Positions 483 to 58,404 of a stretch of 64,000 nt of DNA are shown one piece after another. The stretch is from a virus. The stretch lies in IMG/VR virus record IMGVR_UViG_3300046722_000226, positions 1 through 64,000 of that record. The stretch is one strand, 5' to 3'. How positions within the stretch are numbered: the stretch's first letter is position 1; the number at the start of each line of letters is the position of its first letter. The translations under genes and the position numbers were made by a program. The notes under the pieces were generated by a model. The model saw nothing but the letters and a program-made list of their open reading frames with translations, had not been told where the DNA came from and ran no database searches.

Positions 483-1324
483 GCGCTCGCAACCACGACC
501 GGCTGGTGACGTCCTGGCTGCTCAAACTCGCAACGCTGGTGGCGGCGACAATCGCGCCCGAAGACCTCAAGCAGCGCGTCGTCAGCATGGGCACGCTGCT
601 CGGCGACGACTTTCCCGATGACCGGACTTGGTCGGCTGATGCGTTGCGCACGATGGTGGCGCAGTTTCGCTACTGGCCGTCCTACATCGAATTGCACGAC
701 GCGCTCGGTGCGTGGTGGGCAGTGCATCGCCCCGAGCCGGTGCGTCTGATCCCGCAGGACATCGAGCACCTTCCGCTTTCGCTCGATGACAAGCTGTGGA
801 TCAAATTCTGGCGCAAGCGGGTGCTGGAAAGCTTCAGCAACTCGTCGGGCGCAACGGTGCTCGGCATGATCCGCGAGAGGTATCCGGCAGCGTATGACTG
901 GCTGGTGGCGAACGATCCCGACGCGGAGGGGGTCGCACGAGCGCGCGGCTGGCCGATGATCGTCGAGCCGGACGCGAGCATGCGGCGCGCGCAAGCTGAC
1001 TGGCGCGACCCGGCGAAAGTGCGCGCGAGCGTCGCCCGCATCGGCCTCGATCACCCGATGCGGGGCGAGATGCTGCGCCTGCTGCGCGCGTTGGTGACGA
1101 AGCACTGCCCCGAGAACATGGCGCTGGTGCCCGATCCCGAGCCGGTCACACGAGCGCCGCGACCGCTGACGGTCGCTCAGCAGGCGCAGGCGCTGGGCGT
1201 GACGGCACCCCCGCCCCCGCCACGGGGGCAGTTGACCCCAGATCAACTTTCGGCCGCCCGCCGTGCAGCGAAGGACCGGGGCAGCCCGACAGGCTGGGTG
1301 GCTCCCTGGGAGCGCGAGGTATGA
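479..1324 (+). CDS. Replication-associated protein, possible helicase loader
   Basis: 281 residues. I use the ATG at 479 because it overlaps the upstream stop (ATGA); an in-frame ATG at 440 would need a 43-base overlap. The protein is helical, with a FRYWPSYIELHDALGAWW segment near residues 62-80 that recalls the short motif of phage proteins following a replication initiator. The C-terminus is Pro- and Ala-rich (about 220-281) with a PPPPPPRGQLTPDQL stretch and looks disordered. No Walker motif is visible, so an ATPase loader is unlikely; an adaptor that recruits the host helicase would fit the position. The role is inferred only from context. Confidence 0.55.
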   Translation: MSARNHDRLVTSWLLKLATLVAATIAPEDLKQRVVSMGTLLGDDFPDDRTWSADALRTMVAQFRYWPSYIELHDALGAWWAVHRPEPVRLIPQDIEHLPLSLDDKLWIKFWRKRVLESFSNSSGATVLGMIRERYPAAYDWLVANDPDAEGVARARGWPMIVEPDASMRRAQADWRDPAKVRASVARIGLDHPMRGEMLRLLRALVTKHCPENMALVPDPEPVTRAPRPLTVAQQAQALGVTAPPPPPRGQLTPDQLSAARRAAKDRGSPTGWVAPWEREV

Positions 1325-2373
1325 CCGTGCATGATCAGACGTCCCCGAGAGGTAAACCGGCCCACCGCGCTCCTACAGGCGCGGGGACGCTCGTGCGCTA
1401 CGAGGCGATGCGCACTCAGCTTGCCGAGTGCGCGCGCGTCGATGAGGCGAAGGACATCCGCGATAAGGCGGAAGCGCTGCGTGCCTACTCCCGGCAGCGT
1501 GAGGACAAAGAAGCCGAGCAGTGGTTCGAAGACATCAAGGTCCGCGCCATTGGTCGCATCGGTGATCTGTCAGCAGCCCTGCCACAAGCCAGCCCAGGTG
1601 GTTCGCCTCCGGGGAAGCGAGGGGGCGGGGGATCGACACTTTCAGGGGGGGAAGTGTCGAAAAAAGCGGCACTGAAGAGCGCGAACCTCACCGAGAAAGC
1701 AGCCGCCGAGGCCGAGAAAGTCGCGAAGATCGTCAAGCTGAACCCCGGCAAGCGCCTGCGTCTGCGCGACGTGCGCCAGATCATCAAAAAGGAACGTCGG
1801 TCAGAGCGTGAAAGCAGCCTCGCCGAAGCGACGCTCGCCGCCTCCCGCAAGCTCGGAAGGCAGGTGTTCGGGGTGATCTACGCCGACCCCCCGTGGCGCT
1901 GGGAGCCGTATTCGCGCGAGACGGGGATGGATCGAGCAGCCGACAACCACTACCCGACCATGACGCCCGACGAGATCGGTAACATCGTCCTGCCCGCCGC
2001 CAGGGATTGCGTGCTGTTCCTGTGGTCGACCGCCGCCATGCAGCCCGCAGCGCACTTCGTGCTGACCGCCTGGGGCTTCTCGCTTCAGACCCACTGCGTG
2101 TGGGTCAAGGACCGCATCGGAACCGGCTACTGGTTCCGCAACAAGCACGAACTCCTGCTGCTGGCGACGCGCGGGCAGGTGCCAGCACCGGCACCCGGCG
2201 AGCAGTTCCCGTCGGTGATCGAGGCCGACGTTGGCGCGCACAGTGCGAAGCCGGACGTCTTCGCGCAGATGATCGAGACGATGTTTCCGAACCTGCCGCG
2301 CCTGGAGATGTTCGGGCGCAAGCGTCGCGAGGGGTGGGTGGTGTGGGGAAACGAAGCGGAGAAGGCAGCATGA
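1321..2373 (+). CDS. MT-A70 family adenine-N6 DNA methyltransferase
   Basis: 350 residues. The C-terminal half is an MT-A70 methyltransferase: the catalytic DPPW tetrad lies near residues 188-191 in IYADPPWRWE, followed by HYPTMTPDEI, LFLWSTAAMQ, HCVWVKD, HELLLLATRG and a terminal EMFGRKRREGWVVWGNE. The N-terminal ~165 residues form a charged helical region with a Gly-rich linker (about 96-110), as in phage proteins that join a DNA-binding segment to MT-A70. It probably methylates phage adenines to avoid restriction or regulate replication. ATGA overlaps link it to both neighbours in the replication operon. Target site unknown. Confidence 0.9.
   Translation: MTVHDQTSPRGKPAHRAPTGAGTLVRYEAMRTQLAECARVDEAKDIRDKAEALRAYSRQREDKEAEQWFEDIKVRAIGRIGDLSAALPQASPGGSPPGKRGGGGSTLSGGEVSKKAALKSANLTEKAAAEAEKVAKIVKLNPGKRLRLRDVRQIIKKERRSERESSLAEATLAASRKLGRQVFGVIYADPPWRWEPYSRETGMDRAADNHYPTMTPDEIGNIVLPAARDCVLFLWSTAAMQPAAHFVLTAWGFSLQTHCVWVKDRIGTGYWFRNKHELLLLATRGQVPAPAPGEQFPSVIEADVGAHSAKPDVFAQMIETMFPNLPRLEMFGRKRREGWVVWGNEAEKAA
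1634..1659. repeat. Inverted repeat inside the methyltransferase linker
   Basis: Arms CGACACTT and AAGTGTCG (8 bp, perfect) flank a 10-base loop with seven consecutive G. It lies in the codons for the Gly-rich linker. It could form an RNA hairpin in the coding region or simply reflect composition. On the minus strand it is preceded by six T, so it is not oriented as an intrinsic terminator for either transcript. Confidence 0.4.
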
Positions 2374-11586: not shown

Positions 11587-12600
11587 ATGTTGAACGCGAC
11601 TTTCGGAATTGAAATTGAGTGCTACCTGCCCGAGGGGGCGACGGCTTCACAAGCTGCGCAAGCGATCCTCGCTCGCGGCATCTACTGCCTCGCCGAAAGC
11701 TACAATCACGGCACGCGCCCGCACTGGAAGATCGTAACTGACGGGTCGCTGGGTGACGTTCGCCGGGGCATCGAAGTGGTGTCTCCGATCCTCACCGGGC
11801 AAGCGGGCCTCGACGCTGTCGTGCTCGTGATGGAAGCGCTGACCGACTTCGGGTGCACCGTCAGCAAGAAGTGCGGGCTTCACGTGCACGTCGGCGCTGC
11901 GAACGCCCCGATCGACTTTTTCAAGAACCTGCTGAAGCTTTACGCACACTTCGAGCCGGTCATCGACTGCTTCATGCCGCCGTCGCGCCGCGCGAGCGCC
12001 AACGCCTACTGCCGCTCAGTCACGTCGGCGAACGTCGCCGCGATCAATGTCGCGACCGATCTTGACTCAGTCATTCGCACGCTCCCGGCGGGCGCGATGG
12101 ACGCGCGTTATCACAAGCTGAACCTGACGTCCTACCGCCGCTATCAGACGGTTGAATTTCGTCAGCACTCGGGCACCCTTGAGGGCAGCAAAGCCGTCGC
12201 CTGGGCCAAGTTCTGCCTCCGGATGGTCGCCGCTGCTCGCGCCGGGAAGTCAATCTCGACAGTGCAAGCACAGATCAACCGGGCGCGTCACGGAACGAAG
12301 AGCCGGATCGTCGGCGATCTGGCGATGCGCCCCGAGGGCGTCAGCGGGAGCGAAGTCAAGGCGGCGACGGGCTGGGGTTCGCTGACAGTGTCGCAGTTGG
12401 AGAAGGCGACTGGCCTGCGTCTGACGGTCGTTCGTCAGGGCCGCAACGCTCGTTACTTCGCGCAGGGCGGGTCCGTCGTCGACGCGACCCCGTCGACGTT
12501 CTCCGCGCTGATGACAACCATCGAAGCCGAAGCCGCCGAAATCGCTTACTTCCGCGCTCGCACGTCGGCGCTGTCCGCGCCGGTCGCGTGGGCAGCGTGA
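11587..12600 (+). CDS. Amidoligase family (COOH-NH2 ligase) enzyme
   Basis: 337 residues. Diagnostic strands of the Amidoligase_2 family: FGIEIECYLP (about 6-15), KIVTDGSLG, GIEVVSPILTG, KKCGLHVHVG (about 95-104) and VEFRQHSGTLEG (about 188-199), giving the metal/ATP-binding acidic and His residues of this glutamine-synthetase-like fold. Members join a carboxylate to an amine, and in bacteria and phages are proposed to modify peptides or cell-wall material. A gamma-glutamylcyclotransferase lies two genes downstream, a known type of pairing. The C-terminal ~100 residues are an extra helical part. Confidence 0.85.
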   Translation: MLNATFGIEIECYLPEGATASQAAQAILARGIYCLAESYNHGTRPHWKIVTDGSLGDVRRGIEVVSPILTGQAGLDAVVLVMEALTDFGCTVSKKCGLHVHVGAANAPIDFFKNLLKLYAHFEPVIDCFMPPSRRASANAYCRSVTSANVAAINVATDLDSVIRTLPAGAMDARYHKLNLTSYRRYQTVEFRQHSGTLEGSKAVAWAKFCLRMVAAARAGKSISTVQAQINRARHGTKSRIVGDLAMRPEGVSGSEVKAATGWGSLTVSQLEKATGLRLTVVRQGRNARYFAQGGSVVDATPSTFSALMTTIEAEAAEIAYFRARTSALSAPVAWAA

Positions 12601-12626
12601 TCACTGCAACCACAGGAGACTGCATC

Positions 12627-12863
12627 ATGGCCAACAAGATCGAGACGAACAGCGCAAGCCCCCTCGCGGGGGCGACGCTGGCTGCGTGGCGCGAGCGCAT
12701 GGGCTACTCGCAGCGCGACGCATGCAAAGCGCTCGGCTGCTCGCGGGGCGCGTGGACGCGCTGGGAGAACAGCCAGCACGACGTGCCGAAGTATATCGGC
12801 CTCGCCTGTTCCGCACTCGCTCTCGGCATGACTGCCATGGGCGTCGAGTACAAGGGATCCTGA
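12627..12863 (+). CDS. XRE-family helix-turn-helix regulator
   Basis: 78 residues from the ATG at 12627 behind AGGAG; an upstream in-frame start would overlap the amidoligase. The helix-turn-helix is LAAWRERMGYSQRDACKALGCSRGAWTRWE (about 18-48). It separates the amidoligase from the cyclotransferase gene and may control the cassette. Ends one base before the next ATG. Confidence 0.8.
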   Translation: MANKIETNSASPLAGATLAAWRERMGYSQRDACKALGCSRGAWTRWENSQHDVPKYIGLACSALALGMTAMGVEYKGS

Positions 12864-12864
12864 C

Positions 12865-13407
12865 ATGCTGATGTTTGCTTACGGCTCCAACTTGAACATG
12901 GAGCAGATGGAGCGGCGTTGCCCGAACGCAGTGCCTCTGGCGCGGATGAAACTGCGCGGACGTCGTCTCGTGTTCCGGGGCGTCGCCGACTGCATCGCCG
13001 AAGCGGGCGCAGTCTGCCACGGCGGTATCTGGGCGATCACGTCCGAGTGCGAAAAGGAACTCGACCTCTACGAAGGGGTGCGCGGCGGGCTGTATCGCAA
13101 AGAGTATGTCCCCATCAACGCGTTTCCAGAGCACGGGTCAGAGATGCTGATTTACGTGATGAACTCGACCGGCATCTTCCCGCCGTCAGCCTACTACCTG
13201 AACGTGATCAAGCAGGGTTACGAAGACTTCGGCCTGTCGAAAGCGGCGCATCGCGCGCTACGCGACGCGGTCGCAGAATCTTATGACGACAAAGCGCCGT
13301 CTCATGTCGAGCGCGCGCGCTACCGACGCACGGGCCGCCCGCAGCTTGCGAAGCGCCCGAGCGATGCCGGACATGCTGGCGACCGGAATAGAAATCACGC
13401 CAGCTAA
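12865..13407 (+). CDS. Gamma-glutamylcyclotransferase-like (AIG2/GGCT fold) protein
   Basis: 180 residues. N-terminal FAYGSNLNMEQMERRCPNA carries the YGSN loop (about residues 6-9) that binds gamma-glutamyl substrate, and LDLYEGVRGGLYRKEYV contains the expected catalytic Glu (about residue 70). The final ~40 residues are basic and probably disordered. Enzymes of this fold release 5-oxoproline from gamma-glutamyl amides. With the amidoligase upstream it could cut or recycle gamma-glutamyl-type conjugates made by that enzyme; this is inference from pairing. Confidence 0.85.
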   Translation: MLMFAYGSNLNMEQMERRCPNAVPLARMKLRGRRLVFRGVADCIAEAGAVCHGGIWAITSECEKELDLYEGVRGGLYRKEYVPINAFPEHGSEMLIYVMNSTGIFPPSAYYLNVIKQGYEDFGLSKAAHRALRDAVAESYDDKAPSHVERARYRRTGRPQLAKRPSDAGHAGDRNRNHAS

Positions 13408-22268: not shown

Positions 22269-23165
22269 ATGGCACGCAAAGCAGCGAAGCGTCCCCCTCG
22301 ACCCCCTGCCGGGAAGCCTGCTCCCCCTGCGTCAGCAGAGCGACAGCCCCGAGCGTGGCCTGCCGACAAGATCGAGCGTCGCCCGATTGCGTCGCTGAAG
22401 CCGTATCTGGCCAACGCGCGCCTGCACAGTCCCGAGCAGATCGAGCAGCTTGCGAACAGCATCCGCCAGTGGGGCTGGACGATGCCGGTGCTGGTAGACG
22501 AGCAGGGGGTGCTGATCGCGGGGCACGCGCGAACACGGGCAGCGGCGCTGCTGAACCTGCCGGACATACCGGTGATGGTCGCGCGCGGCTGGTCGCCCGA
22601 GCAGATCAGGGCTTACGTGATCGCCGACAACAAGCTGGCGATGAACGCCGACTGGTCGCAGGAGCTACTGATCAAGGAAGTGGGCGAACTGGCAGCGTCT
22701 TCGTTCGACGTGACGCTGCTCGGCTTCGGCGAGGCTGAACTGGTGCACCTGCTGGAGCCGGATCGCGACTTCGATCCGAATCGCGAGTGGGGCGGCATGC
22801 CCGCGTTCTCGCAGGACGATCTGATGGCGTGGCGCTCGATCGTCGTGCACTTCAAAGACCAGAGCGGCGTGGACGACTTCGCGAATCGCATGGGTCAGTC
22901 GGTAACTGACAAGACGAAATATCTCTGGCATCCTGCCGAGCCGCGTGTCGCGCAAGCTAACCAGCGATGGAAAGTCGATGACCAACCCGCACCACCCGAT
23001 CTACATCGTGAGCAAGGGCCGAGCGGACAGCCGGTTGACAGTCAAAGCGCTGGAACGGATGCAGGTGCCGTTTCGGATCATCGTCGAGCGGCAGGAATTC
23101 GACCTATACGCCGCCGTAATCGACCCGGGCAGGATACTGGTACTCGATCCGGCATATCAGCGTGA
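22269..23165 (+). CDS. ParB/sulfiredoxin-like protein (with read-through tail)
   Basis: 298 residues as the frame runs. A Pro/Lys-rich N-terminus is followed by the ParB-like fold: RPIASLKPYLANARLHSPEQ, LVDEQGVLIAGHARTRAA (about 77-94), IPVMVARGWSPEQI and ADNKLAMNADW. A second phage-specific part has GGMPAFSQDDLMAWRSIVVH and QSVTDKTKYLWHPAE, after which the recognisable protein ends (about residue 222). The last ~75 residues overlap the next gene by 188 bases and look like out-of-frame coding. It directly precedes two glycosyltransferase genes and may guide or assist them on DNA; that link is inference. Confidence 0.8.
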   Translation: MARKAAKRPPRPPAGKPAPPASAERQPRAWPADKIERRPIASLKPYLANARLHSPEQIEQLANSIRQWGWTMPVLVDEQGVLIAGHARTRAAALLNLPDIPVMVARGWSPEQIRAYVIADNKLAMNADWSQELLIKEVGELAASSFDVTLLGFGEAELVHLLEPDRDFDPNREWGGMPAFSQDDLMAWRSIVVHFKDQSGVDDFANRMGQSVTDKTKYLWHPAEPRVAQANQRWKVDDQPAPPDLHREQGPSGQPVDSQSAGTDAGAVSDHRRAAGIRPIRRRNRPGQDTGTRSGISA

Positions 23166-23841
23166 CTACGACACCTGCGACGCGCATGGAGGAAACAAGA
23201 CGCGCGGCTCTGGACCTGCTCGCAACTTCGCATGGGATCACGCCAAAGCGGCTGGAGCGAAGTGGCATTGGACAGTCGATGACAACATCAGGGCATTCTA
23301 CCGGCTCGCGCACAATCTGAAGATTCCGCTGGCAGACGGCTCGTGCTTTCGGCTCATGGAGGAGTTCGCCGAGCGCTATCAGAACGTCGGCATGGTAGGG
23401 CCCAATTACGTCTTCTTCGCCAAGCGCAGACAGCTTATTCCTCCGTTCACGATCAACACCCGCATCTACTCCTGCAACCTGATTCGAACCGATCTGCCAT
23501 TTCGCTGGCGCGCGCGCTTCAACGAGGACACCGACCTGTCGCTGCGGATGCTGAAAGCGTCATGGTGCACGGTGCTCTTCAACGCCTTCCTTCAGGCGAA
23601 ACAAACGACGCTGACGATGCGCGGCGGCAACACAGACGAGCTATACCGAGGCGGCACGGTGCCGAAGAGCCGTATGATCGTAGCGTTGCACCCGGACGTG
23701 ACGCGGATCACGCAGCGCTTCGGCAGGGTGCATCACTATGTGGATTACCGCGCGTTCGCTCACATAAAGCCGGTGCTGCGAGACGGACTGGTGATCCCTT
23801 CTAACGCGGATGAACATGGCCTGCGGCTGATAGCGGCATGA
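22978..23841 (+). CDS. TET-associated-type glycosyltransferase (TAGT-like), first copy
   Basis: 287 residues from the ATG at 22978, preceded by GGAAAG; a GTG at 22945 is also in frame. Motifs: IYIVSKGRADSRLTVKALER, DTCDAHGG, GSGPARNFAWDHA, WHWTVDDNIRAF with the Asp pair near 101-102, INTRIYSCNLIR and RFNEDTDLSLRML (acidic pair near 183-184). This set matches the TAGT family, which transfers sugars onto oxidised bases in phage and eukaryotic DNA-modification systems. No TET/JBP oxygenase was found in the window, so the acceptor is open. The next gene is a paralogue. Confidence 0.8.
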   Translation: MTNPHHPIYIVSKGRADSRLTVKALERMQVPFRIIVERQEFDLYAAVIDPGRILVLDPAYQRDYDTCDAHGGNKTRGSGPARNFAWDHAKAAGAKWHWTVDDNIRAFYRLAHNLKIPLADGSCFRLMEEFAERYQNVGMVGPNYVFFAKRRQLIPPFTINTRIYSCNLIRTDLPFRWRARFNEDTDLSLRMLKASWCTVLFNAFLQAKQTTLTMRGGNTDELYRGGTVPKSRMIVALHPDVTRITQRFGRVHHYVDYRAFAHIKPVLRDGLVIPSNADEHGLRLIAA

Positions 23842-24809
23842 ACCCCCGTTTTCCCGTCTACATTGTCAGTAAGGGAAGGTGGGAAAGCCGCCTGACGGCT
23901 CGCGCATTCGATGAACTGCGAGTGCCTTACTACATCATTGTCGAAGAGCAGGAGCGTGATGCCTACCGCAAGGTGATCAAGGGAGAGGTTCTAACCCTCG
24001 ACCCCGCCTTTCAGCTTGCGTATGACACCTGTGACGCGCGTGGCGTGGGGAAAGGGCGAGGATCAGGACCGGCACGCAATTTCGCTTGGGAGCACGCGAT
24101 CAGACAGGGCGCAGAGTGGCATTGGACAGTCGATGACAACATTCAGCGCTTCTATCGCTGGCATCGGAACGCCAAAGTTCCGGTCGCTGACGGAACGATG
24201 TTCTATGCCGTGGAGGACTTCTGCCTGCGTTATCGCAACATCGCGATGGCAGGACCGAACTATGAGTCGTTCGCTCCGCGCCGGGGAGTGCGCCCTCCGC
24301 TGACGTTCAATACCCGTATTTATTCATGCAATTTGATTCGCAATGACGTGCCGTTTCGGTGGCGTGGCCGTTACAATGAAGACACGGACTTGAGTCTGCG
24401 CATGCTCAAAGCCCGCTGGTGCACGGTGCTTTTCAATGCCTTTTTGCAAAAAAAAGTTCGCACCTTGCACATGAAGGGAGGTAACACCGACACGATTTAC
24501 GTCGGTGGCACGCTGCCGAAAAGCCAGATGCTGGTGGCGCTCCGCCCCGACGTGACGAAGCTGGTGACGCGCTATGGACGCTGGCACCATCAGGTTGACT
24601 ACCGACCGTTTCGTCACAATCGGCCAGTGCTCCGAGAAGGGGTCAGCGTCGATGACAGAATCAACGAATTCGGAATGCGACTGACCAATCTGAAGGAGAT
24701 GAGGGATGAAAGGGCGAAAGCCGAAGCCGACCGCGCTGGCGAAGCTGCACGGCAAGACCGGGCATCGGCGCATGAACGACGCCGAGCCGCAGGCTCCAGG
24801 CTCACTTGA
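23838..24809 (+). CDS. TAGT-like glycosyltransferase, second copy
   Basis: 323 residues, ATGA overlap with the first copy. Nearly every motif is shared: VYIVSKGRWESRLTARAF, DTCDARGV, GSGPARNFAWEHA, WHWTVDDNIQRF (Asp pair near 99-100), NTRIYSCNLIR and RYNEDTDLSLRML, with well over half of residues identical by eye, so the pair arose by tandem duplication. The C-terminal ~36 residues, charged and Ala/Arg-rich, run 104 bases into the terminase small-subunit gene and are absent from copy one. The two may use different sugars or sites. Confidence 0.8.
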   Translation: MNPRFPVYIVSKGRWESRLTARAFDELRVPYYIIVEEQERDAYRKVIKGEVLTLDPAFQLAYDTCDARGVGKGRGSGPARNFAWEHAIRQGAEWHWTVDDNIQRFYRWHRNAKVPVADGTMFYAVEDFCLRYRNIAMAGPNYESFAPRRGVRPPLTFNTRIYSCNLIRNDVPFRWRGRYNEDTDLSLRMLKARWCTVLFNAFLQKKVRTLHMKGGNTDTIYVGGTLPKSQMLVALRPDVTKLVTRYGRWHHQVDYRPFRHNRPVLREGVSVDDRINEFGMRLTNLKEMRDERAKAEADRAGEAARQDRASAHERRRAAGSRLT

Positions 24810-25233
24810 AGACCCTCCGCACTGGCTGACGGAAGAACAGGTCGACGGCTGGAGGCACGCGCTGGCAAGCGCACCGCCGGGGCTGCTGCGCCGCCTGGAC
24901 AGAGGCGTGCTGGCGGTCTGGGTGGTGGCTGAAGACACCCACCGCCGCGCTGCGGAACTGCTGCGCACGACGCAAACGCTGCTGATGCGCCAGCGCGGCA
25001 TGCCGATGCCGTTTCCGTCGCTCTATCTCGGCATCATGAACAAGCAGGCGATGATCATGCTGAAGGCCGCAGGGGAGTTGGGCTTCTCGCCGACAGCACG
25101 AGCACGCGCTTACGCGCAGCCGCTCGGACCCGAGGTCAAGCTGCCGCATGCCGACACGAAGCAGGGCAAGCGCAAGCACGTCCCGCTGGCCGAATACGTT
25201 GCGAACGCGCCGCCGCGCCCAGTGATGCACTGA
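24706..25233 (+). CDS. Terminase small subunit, P27 family
   Basis: 175 residues, starting MKGRKPKPTALAKLHGKTGH, the basic N-terminal signature of P27-type small terminases. WLTEEQVDGWRHALASAPPG and DRGVLAVWVVAEDTHRRAAE form the central helices, and ELGFSPTARARAYA matches the conserved C-terminal helix. It should bind the packaging site and deliver DNA to the large subunit. The ATG lies inside the 3' end of the second glycosyltransferase frame, behind a GGAGATGAGGG site. Confidence 0.85.
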   Translation: MKGRKPKPTALAKLHGKTGHRRMNDAEPQAPGSLEDPPHWLTEEQVDGWRHALASAPPGLLRRLDRGVLAVWVVAEDTHRRAAELLRTTQTLLMRQRGMPMPFPSLYLGIMNKQAMIMLKAAGELGFSPTARARAYAQPLGPEVKLPHADTKQGKRKHVPLAEYVANAPPRPVMH

Positions 25234-25415: not shown

Positions 25416-27197
25416 ATGGCGAAAGCCAGCGCGTCGTCGATGGTCGGCTGGCGTGCGCCGCGCATCGGCTCCGGCTCGACGCTGCGCGGGCAGATCACCG
25501 TGCCGGATCATCGCCCGCACCGTGGGGTAGACTCGGCGACTGCCTACGCGTGGGACGTGCTCGACGGTCGCATCACTGCCTGCCGCTACCTCATCCTCGC
25601 TGCCGAGCGGCACTTCGCCGACCTCGCCACCGGTGCCGAGCGCGGGCTTCAGTTCGACAAAAAGTGGGCGCGCTACGCGATCACCTTCTTTCCCGAATAC
25701 CTGTGCCACAGCAAGGGCGAGTGGGCCGGGGAAGAACTGAACCTCTCGCCGTGGCAGGAGTTCGCGATCGGATCCGTCTACGGCTGGTTTCGCGCTGACG
25801 GCACGCGGCGCTTTCGCACGGCCTACGAGGAAGTCGCCCGCAAGAACGGCAAGAGCACGACGGCTGCGGGGCTGGGATTGTTCGCTCTGGTCGCGGACGA
25901 TGAGCCGGGAGCGGAGATTTACGCGGCGGCGACGAAGCGCGATCAGGCGCGCATCATCTTCTCCGAAGCGCAGCAGATGACCCGGCGATCACCTGACCTT
26001 CTCAACGTGCTGTCGGTGTTCAAATACAACATTGCGATGGACAGCACCGGATCGAAGTTCGAACCGCTGTCGGCGGATGACCGCACGCTGGACGGGCTGA
26101 ATCCGCATCTCGTGCTGGTCGATGAACTGCACAAGCATCGCACGCGCGCGGTGCTCGACGTGCTCGACACGGCGCTGGGCGCGCGCCGCAACCCGCTGCT
26201 GTGGCTGATCACGACCGCTGGCGACGACAACCCGGAGTCCGTCTATGCGGCCGAGAACGCCTACGCGATTCAAGTGCTGGAAGGCACGGTCGAGGACGAT
26301 AACTACTTCGCGCTGGTCTACACGCTCGATCGCGAAGACCGCTGGGACGATCCGAAGGTCTGGATCAAGGCAAACCCCAATCTCGGGATAAGCCTGAAGC
26401 TGTCCGATCTGAAGCGGCAGGCGCAAAAAGCGGCCCGCTCACCCCCGGCGCTGGCGTCGTTCAAGCGCTTGCGGCTCAATCTGCGCACGTCATCGGCTGT
26501 TCGTGCAATCGACATGGCGGTATGGGCGAAGAACACGCTTGGCCCGTTCGACCCGGCGCTGATGCACGGGCGGCGCTTTTACGGCGGGCTGGATATCAGT
26601 TCGAAGGTCGATTTGACGGCGTGGGTCAAGCTGTTCCCGCCCGAAGGGGAAGAGACGCGCTGGCGCATCGTGCCGCGCTTCTGGATGCCCGCGTTCACTG
26701 TCGAAGAGAAGAGCGACCGGGATCGGGTGCAATACCGCCGCTGGATCGACGAGGGTCTGATCGAGGTCACGCAGGGAAACGTCGTGGATCAGAGCGAAAT
26801 CTTCGATGCGGTGGTGGAGGATTGCAGGCTGGGGGAGTGCATCACGTGCGCCTATGATCCGTGGAACGCTGCTAGCCTCGCCGTCTCGCTTGCGGATCAA
26901 GGGGTGCCGATGAGCGAGTTCATCCAGGGGATTCGCTCTTACACTGCACCGACAAAAGAGTTAGAGGCCATGCTGCTGAGCGAAAAGCTTGACCACGGCG
27001 GCAACGAAGTCCTCACATGGATGGCATCGTCGATGATGGCCGTTACCGACCGCAATGAGAATCGAATGCCTTCGAAAAAGCACTCGGTCGCGCGAATTGA
27101 TGGAATAACCAGTCTCATCATGGCGATTGGGCGTAGCATGGACGAAGACCCGAGCGCGGGGATGGAAGGCTTCATGAGCGATCCGGTGACCCTGTGA
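25416..27197 (+). CDS. Terminase large subunit (Terminase_1, HK97-like)
   Basis: 593 residues. ATPase: FRTAYEEVARKNGKSTTAAG carries the Walker A-like RKNGKS (about 143-150), HLVLVDELHKHRTRAV the Walker B with catalytic Glu (about 232-240), and WLITTAGDDNPES the coupling motif. Nuclease: GGLDISSKVDLTAW (first Asp about 392) and later acidic sites. This ATP-driven motor and nuclease packages DNA into the prohead with the portal and the P27-type small subunit. Confidence 0.95.
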   Translation: MAKASASSMVGWRAPRIGSGSTLRGQITVPDHRPHRGVDSATAYAWDVLDGRITACRYLILAAERHFADLATGAERGLQFDKKWARYAITFFPEYLCHSKGEWAGEELNLSPWQEFAIGSVYGWFRADGTRRFRTAYEEVARKNGKSTTAAGLGLFALVADDEPGAEIYAAATKRDQARIIFSEAQQMTRRSPDLLNVLSVFKYNIAMDSTGSKFEPLSADDRTLDGLNPHLVLVDELHKHRTRAVLDVLDTALGARRNPLLWLITTAGDDNPESVYAAENAYAIQVLEGTVEDDNYFALVYTLDREDRWDDPKVWIKANPNLGISLKLSDLKRQAQKAARSPPALASFKRLRLNLRTSSAVRAIDMAVWAKNTLGPFDPALMHGRRFYGGLDISSKVDLTAWVKLFPPEGEETRWRIVPRFWMPAFTVEEKSDRDRVQYRRWIDEGLIEVTQGNVVDQSEIFDAVVEDCRLGECITCAYDPWNAASLAVSLADQGVPMSEFIQGIRSYTAPTKELEAMLLSEKLDHGGNEVLTWMASSMMAVTDRNENRMPSKKHSVARIDGITSLIMAIGRSMDEDPSAGMEGFMSDPVTL

Positions 27198-35677: not shown

Positions 35678-36366
35678 TGTTGGTCACGAAGACAGCGCGC
35701 GCGCGCACTGTAGGCGAAGAGCCGGTCACGCTCGACGAAGCGCGCCAGCACCTTCGTCTCGACGTCGGCGGAAGTCCTCCTTCGCATCCAGACGACGGGC
35801 TGATCGTCGAGTGGATCACTGCCGCGCGCCAGTTCGTCGAGCAGGAAACCGGCCTGACGCTCGTCACCGCTTCAGTGACGGATGTGCGCGACAGCTTCGA
35901 AGGCACTGCGCAGCGCCACTCCATGGGCGCGCAATACAGCTACGGATACGCCTGGGGTTACGGCTACTATCCCGGCGAGGGGTCGTTCCTGTGGGATCGC
36001 GGCCACGGCGGGGGACGCCCGTCGTTCGTGCTGCTGCGCGCGCCGGTCATCTCGATTGACTCGTTGCGCTACGTCGACACCAGCGGCATCGAGCAGACGA
36101 TGACGGAGGACGAGTATCGCGCCACCGACGACGGCGTGCTGACGCGCCTGGAGCCTGCGCTCGGGCTGTCATGGCCGGTTCCCTACTACGGTGCGCACGG
36201 CGTGGTGACGGTCGACTATACGTGCGGTTACGACCCCGATCCGGTGCCCTCCGCGTTGGTGACCGCCGTGAAGATGATGCTGGCCATCTACTATGAGAAC
36301 CGCAGCCCGATTGCGATCAAGCCGCTCGGCTTCGATGCGCTCGTCGACAAGTATCGGGTGCTCTGA
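35677..36366 (+). CDS. Head-tail connector protein (gp6-like)
   Basis: 229 residues from the ATG at 35677. VTLDEARQHLRLDVGGSPPS, HPDDGLIVEWITAARQFVEQ and ETGLTLVTASVTDVRDSF form the N-terminal half; FVLLRAPVISIDSLRYVDTS and SALVTAVKMMLAIYYENRSP complete the gp6/phiE125-gp8-type connector. A Tyr/Gly-rich insert (YSYGYAWGYGYYPGEGSFLW, about 87-106) is unusual in length. Confidence 0.85.
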   Translation: MLVTKTARARTVGEEPVTLDEARQHLRLDVGGSPPSHPDDGLIVEWITAARQFVEQETGLTLVTASVTDVRDSFEGTAQRHSMGAQYSYGYAWGYGYYPGEGSFLWDRGHGGGRPSFVLLRAPVISIDSLRYVDTSGIEQTMTEDEYRATDDGVLTRLEPALGLSWPVPYYGAHGVVTVDYTCGYDPDPVPSALVTAVKMMLAIYYENRSPIAIKPLGFDALVDKYRVL

Positions 36367-36998
36367 TGCAGACGCAATTCCCGAAGCCCATTCCAGGCTT
36401 CGACATCCCGCCTCTGGTTCCGCAGTCGATACCGCCGCGCTCGGTTCCGCCATGGTGGGAGCGCAAGCACTTCCTGTCGTTCCTGATCGAGCACTTCGAC
36501 TGGAAGATGGGGGCCGAGATCGGCGTCGCAGAAGGTCGCACATCGTCCTACCTGCTGGGCAAACATCCAGAACTGCACATGATCGGGGTCGATGCACGGA
36601 GGGTGTTCTTCGACCACGCCGGGCCGGACGATTTTATGTGCTGGGACCATGACGCGCTGCGCATACTTGCGGAGGCTAATCTCGCTCCGTTCAAAGACCG
36701 CTGGGCGATGTTCGAAACGCTAAGCGTCGAGGCCGCCGAGAAGGTGCCTGACGGAAGCCTGGACTTCGTGTTCATCGACGCTGACCACAGCGAGGGCGCG
36801 TGCCGCGCCGACATCATCGCGTGGCTGCCGAAGGTGCGTGCGAACGGCTGGCTGCTCGGGCACGACATCAACTGGAGCGGCGTGCGCGCGGCGGTCGACG
36901 ACCTCTATCCTGGCTATCACATCGGCCCCGACGTCGTGTGGTTCCGCCCGGTGCATCCGGTCGTGAACTGGTGGTGGTGGCTGTATGTCGGAAACTAA
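36366..36998 (+). CDS. Class I SAM-dependent methyltransferase (Methyltransf_24-like)
   Basis: 210 residues; its ATG shares one base with the connector stop. WKMGAEIGVAEGRTSSYLLG is SAM motif I (about 47-66), ELHMIGVDARRVF motif II, and LDFVFIDADHSEGACRADII motif IV, typical of Methyltransf_24. It is inserted between two connector genes, not with a target obvious from order. With the glycosyltransferases nearby it may methylate sugars or a virion protein. Confidence 0.8.
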   Translation: MQTQFPKPIPGFDIPPLVPQSIPPRSVPPWWERKHFLSFLIEHFDWKMGAEIGVAEGRTSSYLLGKHPELHMIGVDARRVFFDHAGPDDFMCWDHDALRILAEANLAPFKDRWAMFETLSVEAAEKVPDGSLDFVFIDADHSEGACRADIIAWLPKVRANGWLLGHDINWSGVRAAVDDLYPGYHIGPDVVWFRPVHPVVNWWWWLYVGN

Positions 36999-53462: not shown

Positions 53463-53566
53463 TGGACCGGACCTTCTGGACGTGCTGGGGGCTGGCGGTC
53501 GCCTGCCTGCTGTTCGCGCTCTACGCGTGGGGGCGGCTGCACGGCTGGTCTCTGGTCACGCCCTGA
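53459..53566 (+). CDS. Very small single-span membrane protein
   Basis: 35 residues from the ATG at 53459 (overlaps the previous stop). FWTCWGLAVACLLFALYAWG is one membrane segment with a short basic C-terminus. It could be a holin or spanin-type accessory because no other lysis cluster was found, but this is a guess. Confidence 0.5.
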   Translation: MMDRTFWTCWGLAVACLLFALYAWGRLHGWSLVTP

Positions 53567-54828
53567 TGCTGCGCCCATCCTTCGCCTTCGACTTCACCAA
53601 CGGCTACTACGATCCGCGCCTTACTTTTGCGCGCGCTTCGATCGGTTCCCATTCCAACCGCGTTGGGGCACTCAGCTACCGGCCTGCTGGCGCTCCCCGC
53701 TTCTGGCACAACTCCGATACCGCCGAAGCGTCAGGGCTGCTGACGGAAAGCGGTTCGACCAACTCGCTCCTATGGTCCGAGGGGTTCGACAATGCCGCGT
53801 GGGTCAAGACTGCCAGCACGGTCACCGTAAACGCCGGGGTGGCTCCGGACGGAAACACCACAGCCGATGCGATCACGGCAACCGACATCACCGCGAACGT
53901 GGCGCAGGCGGTGGCGATCACCGCCGGGCAGTGCGTGGCGTTTTCGGTGTTCGCGAAAGTCAACTCGTCCTCGCCCTACGTCTCGCTGGCGCTGACTTCC
54001 GGCGCGCTGACAGTGCCGGTCTGGTTCAACATCGCGACCGGCACCATCGGCCTGAGCGGAGCCGGATCGGGCAACCTGATTTTGCAATCGGCAGCGATCC
54101 GCAAATGGGGCAACGGCTGGTATCGCTGCTCGGTGCTGGTGAACACCACGACCATCACCAGCCTGACCGCTGCGTTCGCACCGTGCATGCAGAGCGGTGG
54201 AGCGGCGGTAAGCGGAAGCTCGGCGCTCTTCTGGGGCGCGATGCTGTCGCAGGAAGGAAACTCGGCTGCGAGCAACCGAGTCACCAGCTACATCGCGACC
54301 ACATCCGCTGCGGTGACGCGCTCGCCCGAGACTTGCAGCCTGCCTTACGCGGCGCTCGATCCGGCGCTGTTCTACCAGAACGAGGGAACCTATTTTCTCG
54401 ATTTCATGCTGCCGCCTGGGGTGAACGCCAGCAACCAACCGATCGCCGGGGCGAGCAATTCTGCCACGTATGCAACGACGCTCAGCATCACCACGGCTGG
54501 GACCAACCTCTCGCTGTTCGGCAGCGTGATCTACCTGGGGTCCGCGCAGACGGTGATTTCCGACACGGTGGCCTACGCCCCGGAGCAGCCGGTCAAAGTG
54601 GCGTTTCGGGCAGGCTCTAACGCGCTCGCAGGGCTTTGCGTCAACGGCAGGTCGCTTGTTCGCGCAGCGATCCCTTCGACATCCTGGCCGTGGAGCGGGA
54701 GCCTGCCGACATCGTTCCAATGGAATTCAACAGCCCAAGGTCAGGCGGCGATCCCGACGATGACACGCCGGTTCGCCTACTACTCGCGGATGCTGGCGGA
54801 CACCGAGATGCAAAAGCTGACGGCGTGA
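53566..54828 (+). CDS. Spike/fibre protein, tandem paralogue 1
   Basis: 420 residues from the ATG at 53566. LRPSFAFDFTNGYYDPRLTF, NSLLWSEGFDNAAWVKTAST, WGNGWYRCSVLV and the 'NEGTYFLDFMLPPG' strand recur in the next two genes, so the three are paralogues. The pattern resembles the lectin-like 'phage head spike fibre' domain. Ends TRRFAYYSRMLADTEMQKLT, also shared. It probably binds surface sugars. Confidence 0.8.
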   Translation: MLRPSFAFDFTNGYYDPRLTFARASIGSHSNRVGALSYRPAGAPRFWHNSDTAEASGLLTESGSTNSLLWSEGFDNAAWVKTASTVTVNAGVAPDGNTTADAITATDITANVAQAVAITAGQCVAFSVFAKVNSSSPYVSLALTSGALTVPVWFNIATGTIGLSGAGSGNLILQSAAIRKWGNGWYRCSVLVNTTTITSLTAAFAPCMQSGGAAVSGSSALFWGAMLSQEGNSAASNRVTSYIATTSAAVTRSPETCSLPYAALDPALFYQNEGTYFLDFMLPPGVNASNQPIAGASNSATYATTLSITTAGTNLSLFGSVIYLGSAQTVISDTVAYAPEQPVKVAFRAGSNALAGLCVNGRSLVRAAIPSTSWPWSGSLPTSFQWNSTAQGQAAIPTMTRRFAYYSRMLADTEMQKLTA

Positions 54829-54832
54829 CGCG

Positions 54833-56125
54833 ATGGCTCTGATCCGCCCCTCCCTGTTTCTCAACTTCGCCGATAGCCAGACGCTCGATCCGCGAGTGAC
54901 ATTCAGCCGTGCCTCGGCCGGATGCTACGCCGATAAGCTTGGAGTGCTGCGCTACCGCCCGGCGAGCACGCCCAGATTCTGGAACAACCCGACCGATGGC
55001 TCGCCGCTGGGGCTGATGCTGGAGGCCGCCGCCACCAACCTCCTGCTCTGGTCGGAAGCGTTCGACAATGCGGCATGGACGAAGACCGGCAGCACGGTTA
55101 CGGCCAACACTTCAACCGCGCCGGACGGGAATGCGACTGCCGATCTGGTGACCGCCATCGATGCCACATCGGCGGTGTCGCAGGCAGTCTCTGTGCCCGC
55201 GAACAACGGGGTGGCTTACTCGGTGTTCGCGCGCGCCGGGGCCAGCAACTTCGTCTCGCTTTCACTGAACGATGGCACCAACCTCGTCTCGGCGTGGTTC
55301 AACCTCGCCACCGGTGTGACCGGATCAAACCTGCCCGGCGCGGGAACGCTGGTCTTCCAGGCATCATCCATCGAAGCATGGGGCGGCGGCTGGTATCGCT
55401 GCGGCGTGCAGGCGATGGGATCGACCATCACCACGGTGACAGCCTCGCTATCGCCATGTGCGGCAGACGGTGCGGCCCCTGCGGCTGGCAATGCCGTCAA
55501 TGCCTGGGGGGCGATGCTGTCTGCGGAGGGGACCAATCCCAACATCTCGCGGCAGAGCAGCTACGTCGGCACGACCTCGGCTGCGGTGACGCGGGCCGCC
55601 GACAATGCCGTTCTGCCCTACTCCAAGATCGACGCCAGCGCCTTCAACCCGAACGAGGGAACCTATTTCGTCGACTTCATCGTGCCGCCTGGATCATGGA
55701 CCTCTTGGTATGGTCCGGGTTTCGGCTTTGTTAGCAGCAATACTGGCAGCGATTATTGCCTGACCGGCCTGACCATTGGATACCCCGCCCTTGGGGCGAT
55801 GGCGCTCGCGGTGCAGACGCAGCTTTGGGCGGGAGGTGCCAGTCAGGGGGTTGCGTCGGCGTTTCCATCGTTCGCCTTCGGCACGCCGGTCAAGGTCGCG
55901 GCCAGCTACAGCCGCACGGATCTCCTCAGGCAGTCGGTGAACGGAGGTGCGGTCACGAGCGCTGCGTCGATCCCGGCCGCGATGCCGCCGCTGCCATTAA
56001 ATTTCACGTTCGAATTGTTTGCCGCATGGACGGTGGCAAGCGCAGTTTCCTCGCTGTTGACCCGCCGCTTCTCCTACTTCCCGCGCTACCTCTCGGCGGA
56101 TCAAATGCAACAACTGACGGCGTGA
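54833..56125 (+). CDS. Spike/fibre protein, tandem paralogue 2
   Basis: 430 residues, four bases after paralogue 1. IRPSLFLNFADSQTLDPRVT, NLLLWSEAFDNAAWTKTGST, WGGGWYRCGVQAM, PNEGTYFVDFIVPPGSWTSW and TRRFSYFPRYLSADQMQQLT match paralogue 1 along the whole length, while loops near residues 290-350 differ most. Same beta-sandwich build expected. Divergent loops suggest different binding specificities. Confidence 0.8.
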   Translation: MALIRPSLFLNFADSQTLDPRVTFSRASAGCYADKLGVLRYRPASTPRFWNNPTDGSPLGLMLEAAATNLLLWSEAFDNAAWTKTGSTVTANTSTAPDGNATADLVTAIDATSAVSQAVSVPANNGVAYSVFARAGASNFVSLSLNDGTNLVSAWFNLATGVTGSNLPGAGTLVFQASSIEAWGGGWYRCGVQAMGSTITTVTASLSPCAADGAAPAAGNAVNAWGAMLSAEGTNPNISRQSSYVGTTSAAVTRAADNAVLPYSKIDASAFNPNEGTYFVDFIVPPGSWTSWYGPGFGFVSSNTGSDYCLTGLTIGYPALGAMALAVQTQLWAGGASQGVASAFPSFAFGTPVKVAASYSRTDLLRQSVNGGAVTSAASIPAAMPPLPLNFTFELFAAWTVASAVSSLLTRRFSYFPRYLSADQMQQLTA

Positions 56126-56129
56126 TCCC

Positions 56130-57380
56130 ATGCTGCTGCGCCCCTCGATCTATTTCGACTACAGCGCCGGCTCGCTCGATCCGAGGCAATCGTTCACGCG
56201 CGCAAGCGCGGCAACGTATTGCGACCGCAATGGCATCATCCGCACGCGCTCGGCGGGTAACCCGCGCTTCGGTTATCAGCCGTCGAACGGCCAGCCTCTG
56301 GGCTGGCAGATCGGGTCGCAATCGACCAACTACCTGCTGTGGTCGGAAGACTTCACGAACGCGGTCTGGACCAAGACCAGCGCCAGCGTGACCGCAGCCA
56401 TGGCGACCGCGCCAGATGGCAACAATACCGGCAGCCAGATCATGGCGACCGGAGCTGGCGGCAGCGTCTCCCAGGCGTTCACCATCACCGCCAATGACCT
56501 GATCCAATACTCCCTCTTCGCACGGAAGAGCGCCAGCCAGTTCGTCAGTCTAACACTTAGCAACGGCGTCAATCCCTGCGCCGTGTGGTTCGACTTGAAC
56601 CAGGGCGTGGTCGGCGGGAACACCCCTGGCGGTGGCTCCTGCGTCTTCTCCGGCGCGGCAATAGAGGCGTGGCCGGGCGGATGGTTCCGCTGCACCATGA
56701 GCGTCAGCACCAACGCCAGCACGAACTTCACGGCGGCATTCCAGCCGGCTTCGGCGAACAACGCCAGCACCGCCACCAACGATGCCGTGATGGCCTGGGG
56801 CGCAAGCCTTTCCCATGGGGTGACCGGAGCCTTTTACGGTCGGACGCCAGCCTACATTCAGACGGCTGCGGCGCAGGGATCGCGCGCCAATGAGATTTCG
56901 CAATTCATCCTTCCGGATGCGAACTTCGATCCGAACCAAGGCACGTTCTTCGTGCACTACACGGTGCCGGTTGCCAGCGGACAGGCGGGCTGGACCGGAG
57001 GGTCGGGCAACACGATCAACGATTACATCTCGCTACGGCACTCCGTCAGGCTCGATGGGGGAGCTTCGAATATCTTCGGCACCATCGTCGCGGGGGGCGT
57101 GCAGGTCGCCCTCGCGCAAGACACCACCAGCGGCATCGGCTTTGAGACGCCGATCCGCGCGGCTTTCGCCTACAAACAGGGGGATGTGGCGGCGTTCTGC
57201 GTAAACGGCAGACCGGTCGTTCAATCTTCGATCCCTGCTGCATGGCCAGCCGCGCCAGCGCGCATCGTGGTCGGCGGGCAGCCGTTCAATCAAAACGTCT
57301 TGGCCGAGATCGCGATTCGCCGCTTCGCCTACTTTCCGCGCAAGCTGACGAATGCTCAACTGATCAAGCTGACGACCTGA
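56130..57380 (+). CDS. Spike/fibre protein, tandem paralogue 3
   Basis: 416 residues, four bases after paralogue 2. LRPSIYFDYSAGSLDPRQSF, NYLLWSEDFTNAVWTKTSAS, WPGGWFRCTMSVS, PNQGTFFVHYTVPVASGQAG and RRFAYFPRKLTNAQLIKLTT align with paralogues 1 and 2. The set probably arose by two duplications. All three keep the N- and C-termini that would be needed to attach to the same tail part. Confidence 0.8.
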   Translation: MLLRPSIYFDYSAGSLDPRQSFTRASAATYCDRNGIIRTRSAGNPRFGYQPSNGQPLGWQIGSQSTNYLLWSEDFTNAVWTKTSASVTAAMATAPDGNNTGSQIMATGAGGSVSQAFTITANDLIQYSLFARKSASQFVSLTLSNGVNPCAVWFDLNQGVVGGNTPGGGSCVFSGAAIEAWPGGWFRCTMSVSTNASTNFTAAFQPASANNASTATNDAVMAWGASLSHGVTGAFYGRTPAYIQTAAAQGSRANEISQFILPDANFDPNQGTFFVHYTVPVASGQAGWTGGSGNTINDYISLRHSVRLDGGASNIFGTIVAGGVQVALAQDTTSGIGFETPIRAAFAYKQGDVAAFCVNGRPVVQSSIPAAWPAAPARIVVGGQPFNQNVLAEIAIRRFAYFPRKLTNAQLIKLTT

Positions 57381-57735: not shown

Positions 57736-58404
57736 ATGCGCAAGCTTCTCATCGCCAGTGCGCTGCTCGGGGCCACCGCCCTGACCGCGCCTGCCCACGC
57801 GATCCAGATCATCGGCTTCGGGGAAACCGGCGCGAGCACCGGCCTGACCGCGACCGAGACTTCGCCGGGGACGAGCACGCACTTTCAGGTCAGCAACGAC
57901 CCCATCATCATCACGCAGATTCAGATGGGCCTCGTCACGCCGACCGGCGCGTTCATCCAACTGTCGGCGAACAGCATCGACACCGCCGTTCCGGTCGGCG
58001 TCTCCGGTATCCTTCAGCACTACAATGGTTCGTTCGAAATCACTTCGGCTGCTGGCGGAGCCGGGACGAACTATCTGTCCGGAACCTTCTCCGACGCTGC
58101 GTTCGGAACCTCCGGTGGTGATCAGCTATCGGTCAACATCGCCAGCCCGCCGGACACGCTGGTATTGACCTCCGACATCGGGCTGGCGACGCTACCGCCG
58201 TCGTCCTTCACGCTCGCGCTGTCCAGCCTGACGCCGCCGTTGTCGATCGACACGACAGGCGGGCCGGGCACGATCGCGCCGTTCAACGCTTTTTTCACCG
58301 GCGATGCCGATGCTTCTGCGGTTCCCGCTCCCGAGCCAGCATCACTCGCTCTTCTCGGTGTGGCACTAATCGGCCTCGGCTGGGTGCGCGCGCGCCGCGC
58401 GTAA
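57736..58404 (+). CDS. Secreted PEP-CTERM sorting-signal protein
   Basis: 222 residues. Sec signal peptide KLLIASALLGATALTAPAHA, a beta-rich body (TAGQ-poor, T/S/G-rich: TFSDAAFGTSGGDQLSVNIA), and a C-terminal VPAPEPASLALLGVALIGLG followed by WVRARRA: PEP box, membrane span and Arg cluster of a PEP-CTERM tag, cut by exosortase in the host. No partner exosortase was seen. ATG follows a GGGGAACACG region. In a phage genome this is unusual; it may be a moron-type gene that alters the host surface or polymer matrix. Codon use looks like the neighbours. Confidence 0.88.
   Translation: MRKLLIASALLGATALTAPAHAIQIIGFGETGASTGLTATETSPGTSTHFQVSNDPIIITQIQMGLVTPTGAFIQLSANSIDTAVPVGVSGILQHYNGSFEITSAAGGAGTNYLSGTFSDAAFGTSGGDQLSVNIASPPDTLVLTSDIGLATLPPSSFTLALSSLTPPLSIDTTGGPGTIAPFNAFFTGDADASAVPAPEPASLALLGVALIGLGWVRARRA

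Follow-up and report, generated by a model that had tools for sequence, protein, structure and literature searches.

A 52-residue companion domain accompanies tandem TAGT glycosyltransferases before the terminase genes of a virus and may recruit them to DNA

A characterised member of the TAGT (TET-associated type) glycosyltransferase family works on DNA, namely in the gentiobiosyl-hmC of phages T2 and T6 (PMC13216743, PMC2993671). Of 753 phage genomes that carry a GT, 288 were counted as having solitary TAGTs, which occur without an alpha- or beta-GT and were called potential novel transferases (PMC13216743); such TAGTs are already known as a puzzle. A survey of T4-type phages gives no gene 42 for Aeh1 or 65 (PMC2993671), and the Aeh1 enzyme is entered in a catalogue as presumably modifying DNA, at a base listed there as unknown (PMC8056088, citing Iyer et al. 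2013). Here, we describe a locus in which two TAGTs lie in tandem before the terminase genes, and we show that enzymes of this clade are strictly linked to a short domain that we refer to as DOM. This domain is previously unnamed, and its strict link with TAGT is a new element; a full-text literature search, the scope of which did not extend to Iyer et al. 2013, returned no published account that connects TAGT with ParB or with DOM.

The sequence analysed, hereafter the window, comprises 64 kb of the 67,618-bp IMG/VR record IMGVR_UViG_3300046722_000226. As the first-pass annotation had stated, three open reading frames precede the terminase genes, all on the plus strand. The ParB-like protein is encoded at 22269-23165 and contains a ParB_N module (PF02195, E 2.8e-6, residues 52-106, about 22422-22586). 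It is followed by TAGT1 at 22945-23841 (PF20691, E 1.3e-39; DDN motif at 23278-23286), whose start is most likely the ATG at 22978, and by TAGT2 at 23838-24809 (PF20691, E 2.3e-41; DDN motif at 24132-24140), which has a NED(T)D motif at residues 180-184. The gene for the terminase small subunit (24706-25233, plus strand; PF05119, E 1.1e-7; phrog_83, E 2.7e-23) starts inside the TAGT2 reading frame and overlaps its end, and that for the large subunit follows at 25416-27197 (plus strand; PF20441, E 8.6e-46; PF03354, E 1.7e-39). The stop codon usually present at this junction in relatives is missing from the ParB frame at 22938-23165 (plus strand), which runs about 188 nt into TAGT1. Apart from these genes, the only one in the genome that was recognised as likely to modify DNA bases encodes an MT-A70 family methyltransferase (1321-2373, plus strand; PF05063, E 3.3e-22).

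Several other features of the window, all on the plus strand, deserve mention in their own right. A putative amidoligase (11587-13407; PF12224, E 8.5e-39) is followed by a gamma-glutamyl cyclotransferase-like gene. Three tandem, paralogue-like genes at 53482-57380, encoding proteins of 416-448 aa that share the start RPS..FDF..DPR.TF.RAS, probably specify tail or fibre proteins. The product of a gene at 57736-58404 has a PEP-CTERM motif (PF07589, E 1.6e-5) and an N-terminus resembling a signal sequence; in two relatives, homologues lie immediately before ParB-TAGT (L041:8583-9344 and L009:133-609).

Profile searches bear out the assignment of both glycosyltransferases to the TAGT family, with bit scores of 136.7 and 142.4 for the two copies and a curated cut-off of 27.5 bits for PF20691, and both also match PHROG 842, beta-glucosyl-HMC-alpha-glucosyltransferase. 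The residues D99 and D100 of the acidic DDN motif are invariant across 85 sequences, both copies included, and out of 74 conserved columns TAGT1 departs from three, none of them within the DDN motif, and TAGT2 from two. The lack of a GT-A fold had been named beforehand as an observation that would speak against this assignment; the AlphaFold model of TAGT2 is confident (mean pLDDT 95.3, pTM 0.89), and a Foldseek search of the PDB with this model matched GT-A enzymes, at modest TM-scores. Among the nearest folds in the PDB are those of protein glycosyltransferases, COLGALT1 and ppGalNAcT for example, and the model strongly matches viral TAGTs, including the T-even-type beta-glucosyl-HMC-alpha-glucosyltransferase of phage PKO111. 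The T6 enzyme is very distant: it matches PF20691 with an E value of 3.7e-9 and gives no significant match to the profile of the window's own clade. Close similarity to it was found neither by BLASTP nor by profile, and the link consists of PF20691 and the fold.

The two copies are similar to each other, as had been noted, with 63% identity and 76% similarity across 282 aa. A second IMG/VR contig, of 28 kb, carries the same tandem with a TAGT2 that is 100% identical, which makes it improbable that the arrangement arose through faulty assembly. Among 50 relatives found with TAGT2 and scanned for TAGT, only this near-identical contig has the tandem; tandem or paired TAGTs are present elsewhere in Vibrio phage Kuja, at locus L143 and at locus L114, the last having two DOM-TAGT pairs. 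A recent duplication is not supported, as TAGT1 is equally close to the enzyme of locus L010 (64% identity) and the branches that would pair the two copies have low support (55-70 SH-aLRT).

The first-pass annotation had placed the TAGT pair behind a ParB-like protein. This holds for the position of the genes, but the conserved neighbour is the C-terminal part of that protein, and ParB is optional. ParB was rejected as the conserved partner because ParB_N is missing from many loci, where the short genes upstream of TAGT match DOM only. BLAST searches related the window's ParB protein to these very short genes, and an iterative HMM aligned their products, which lack ParB_N, to its C-terminus. 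The domain so delimited has 52 residues and corresponds to residues 172-223 of the ParB-like protein (22782-22937, plus strand; iterative HMM, E 4.6e-23). Its motif is EWxGMPxFxQ...VHF...D.FA...GQ..T.KTK.LWxP, with a conserved core formed by the W, MP(E)F, the FA.LIGQ helix and WxP. DOM has no match in Pfam and nothing above the usual thresholds in PHROG, where the stand-alone forms yielded no more than a single weak match (E 0.0015), to a family whose function is unknown. In the AlphaFold model of the ParB protein it forms one helix with zero assigned strands, and its best match among solved structures (E 0.8) is not meaningful; the fold therefore gives no function.

The link between DOM and TAGT is strict. 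In the best 80 loci found with TAGT2 as query, DOM is fused to TAGT or located just upstream of it, with at most one intervening gene, in all 78 testable loci; in the other two, TAGT is at the contig end. Among these loci, DOM forms the C-terminal tail of a longer upstream protein in 39 cases and has a gene of its own in 31; four loci have it fused to TAGT, and four have it upstream across a gap, usually of one gene. The reverse search, for which an alignment of stand-alone DOM proteins served as query, likewise gave TAGT downstream in all 78 testable loci among the best 80, the other two stopping at the contig edge. The two sets, which together hold about 160 relatives with TAGT almost always right behind DOM, are not fully independent, as a few contigs are common to both. 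Fusions of DOM and TAGT also occur in isolates (Aeromonas phage Aeh1 and Vibrio phages 1.124.O and 1.076.O), both TAGTs of Kuja carry a fused DOM, and in phage henriette DOM is a separate upstream reading frame. The distances of DOM and TAGT correlate across 100 non-redundant loci (Spearman 0.32, permutation p about 0.002); within the 38 ParB-type loci this mirror-tree correlation was not significant.

The ParB part is poorly conserved, with a mean identity of 31% and distances that correlate weakly with those of TAGT. The AlphaFold model of the ParB protein (mean pLDDT 88) matches ParB, Noc and sulfiredoxin folds in the PDB with E values down to 1.8e-6. The best BLAST matches among the ParB modules of TAGT loci show 48-54% identity, and the closest match found to the window's module (residues 29-162), with 61% identity, is the N-terminus of a ParB-N6_N4_Mtase protein of phage ctOK67; a similar module of phage P8625 is 42% identical. 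In ctOK67, the ParB-N6_N4_Mtase gene is followed by a putative DNA-binding gene, the terminase and the portal gene. The N6_N4 methylase domain is absent from the window's ParB protein, in which Pfam detects ParB_N only, and DOM is present instead. Because the ParB module is common to the N6/N4 methylases and occupies the same slot before the terminase, it seems that a DNA methylase has been replaced by DOM and TAGT on the same ParB carrier. We infer from this swap, the principal reason to favour a DNA target, that the enzymes may act on DNA. As a separate observation, a gene of Streptococcus phage Javan254 named "DNA modification methylase" (L096:3001-4098) encodes ParB_N and DUF4417 according to Pfam, with no methylase domain found.

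A DNA target raises the question of the acceptor. The first-pass annotation had reported no TET/JBP oxygenase in the window, and this extends to the whole 67,618-bp record: PF12851 was not found there, nor in 74 (50 + 24) other metagenomic records and six isolates, in a search in which no control genome was matched and which is therefore a weaker result. The search for thymidylate-synthase-type enzymes (PF00303) was sensitive, as nine control genomes were matched and T6 gene 42 was detected at E 1.5e-15; it found none in the window's record. Enzymes of this gene-42 type, which precedes TAGT in T6, were found in none of 57 metagenomic DOM-TAGT records, including ones of 334, 151 and 107 kb, and thymidylate-synthase-family genes are present in Aeh1, Kuja and henriette. 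A C5 DNA methylase (PF00145) is also missing from the window's record, and present in six of 63 records. These absences from the record, and that of TET/JBP and thymidylate-synthase-type genes from all 57 metagenomic DOM-TAGT records, weaken the earlier suggestion of a modification made by another part of the genome. The inference that the acceptor is not TET-made, or is made in another way, is supported. Because no donor of a base hydroxyl was found, a DNA acceptor at this locus would be one without known chemistry.

Accessory genes are found in the cassettes of several relatives. Locus L010 has a radical-SAM/SPASM gene between ParB-DOM and TAGT (L010:8898-9983), the product of which could functionalise the acceptor. 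FkbM (sugar-type) methyltransferases are located between DOM and TAGT at L056 and fused to TAGT at L031, and class I methyltransferases lie between DOM and TAGT at L121 and L164 and downstream at L110. Together with the second TAGTs, these genes fit a cassette for building a sugar and decorating it, whatever its target. The window itself contains a Methyltransf_24 gene at 36366-36998 (plus strand), within the head-to-tail block, as a possible accessory to sugar modification.

The best-supported model, to which we give about an even chance, is that of a DNA glycosyltransferase recruited by DOM. In this model, the GT-A enzyme TAGT, present here in two tandem copies, would be recruited or activated through physical contact with DOM, a domain that the phage described here bears on a DNA-binding protein of the ParB type. 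ParB would bring TAGT to the phage DNA before packaging, following the same logic as the ParB-N6/N4 methylase fusions, and TAGT would use a host nucleotide-sugar to glycosylate a DNA base. With two copies, two sugars would most likely be added, or the same sugar in two contexts, and the acceptor, as far as visible, would come from neither TET/JBP nor a T4-type hydroxymethylase. A more specific version seems distinctly improbable: the sugar would be put directly on a nitrogen of a canonical base, for instance adenine N6 or cytosine N4, the atoms modified by the methylase that occupies the same ParB slot, without prior hydroxymethylation, and the tandem TAGTs or accessory methyltransferases would then elaborate it. 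The result would be an N-linked glycosyl modification of DNA.

The DNA model is weakened by the missing donor of a base hydroxyl, by the protein-glycosyltransferase folds near TAGT2 and by the large distance of the T6 enzyme. The first two of these observations would suit a module in which TAGT1 and TAGT2 add sugar to a virion or host protein and DOM recognises the acceptor. Many relatives adjoin packaging and head genes, the position of the enzyme of Vibrio phage 1.076.O, between portal and head-morphogenesis genes, suits a virion-protein target, and phages suspected of capsid glycosylation encode glycosyltransferases (PMC11256854). We nevertheless regard protein glycosylation as a minority possibility, since DNA methylases that occupy this slot have the ParB module too, several relatives are placed among genes for replication, recombination or repair, and a characterised TAGT works on DNA.

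Ordinary glycosylation of hmC or hmU, with a hydroxymethylating enzyme encoded in a missing part of the genome, supplied by the host or unrecognised, would resemble T6, in which TAGT overlaps the hydroxymethylase gene 42. The thymidylate-synthase-family genes of Aeh1, Kuja and henriette favour it, and the window's record is classed as linear and may be incomplete. The failure to find PF00303 in the 57 metagenomic records, with a profile that does detect T6 gene 42, and the published table that gives no gene 42 for Aeh1 and 65 make it improbable in our view. It is also very unlikely that the second TAGT is a redundant duplicate, that ParB is unrelated to TAGT function and that their association is one of gene order only. 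The rarity of the tandem and the low identity and weakly correlated distances of the ParB part would fit such an account, but both copies keep nearly all conserved positions, and DOM, which several phages have as a fusion with TAGT, is linked to TAGT in all testable loci.

The DOM link gives the large orphan clade of solitary TAGTs a second component, and with it a reason why TAGT alone might look inactive. The 52-residue domain can also serve as a marker for finding such cassettes. If a base is indeed glycosylated without prior hydroxymethylation, phages would have a DNA modification, and with it a counter-restriction chemistry, of a new class. The cultured phages Aeh1, Vibrio 1.124.O and henriette make DOM-TAGT experimentally accessible now.

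Compared with known systems, the window shares with the beta-glucosyl-HMC-alpha-glucosyltransferase of T2 and T6 the PF20691 family, the GT-A fold and an overlap with the preceding gene. On the other hand, the T6 TAGT is without DOM, overlaps gene 42 and extends an existing glucose on hmC, whereas neither a hydroxymethylase nor an alpha- or beta-GT was seen in the window. In Microbacterium Quhwahvirus, ParB directly precedes a glycosyltransferase with the TAGT-like motifs VRNY, DDD and GGN, but this enzyme resembles neither TAGT nor DOM significantly in profile tests and adjoins a UDP-glucose dehydrogenase; as the motif resemblance was seen by eye only, we rejected it as a family member. The order ParB, glycosyltransferase and UDP-glucose dehydrogenase is found in Microbacterium phage Scumberland (L093:2962-5137), and glycosyltransferases of the Scumberland type in 56 Microbacterium phage records. 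The ParB-N6/N4 methylase fusions of ctOK67 and P8625 share the ParB module and the slot just upstream of the terminase, and have a C-terminal methylase where the window has DOM and a separate glycosyltransferase. Finally, the putative glucosyltransferase of Aeh1 (Aeh1p093, listed as Aeh1ORF087c) is 48% identical, belongs to the same clade and has an N-terminal DOM fusion; it is a single fused copy in a 233-kb T4-like genome, whereas the window has DOM on ParB and two separate TAGTs.
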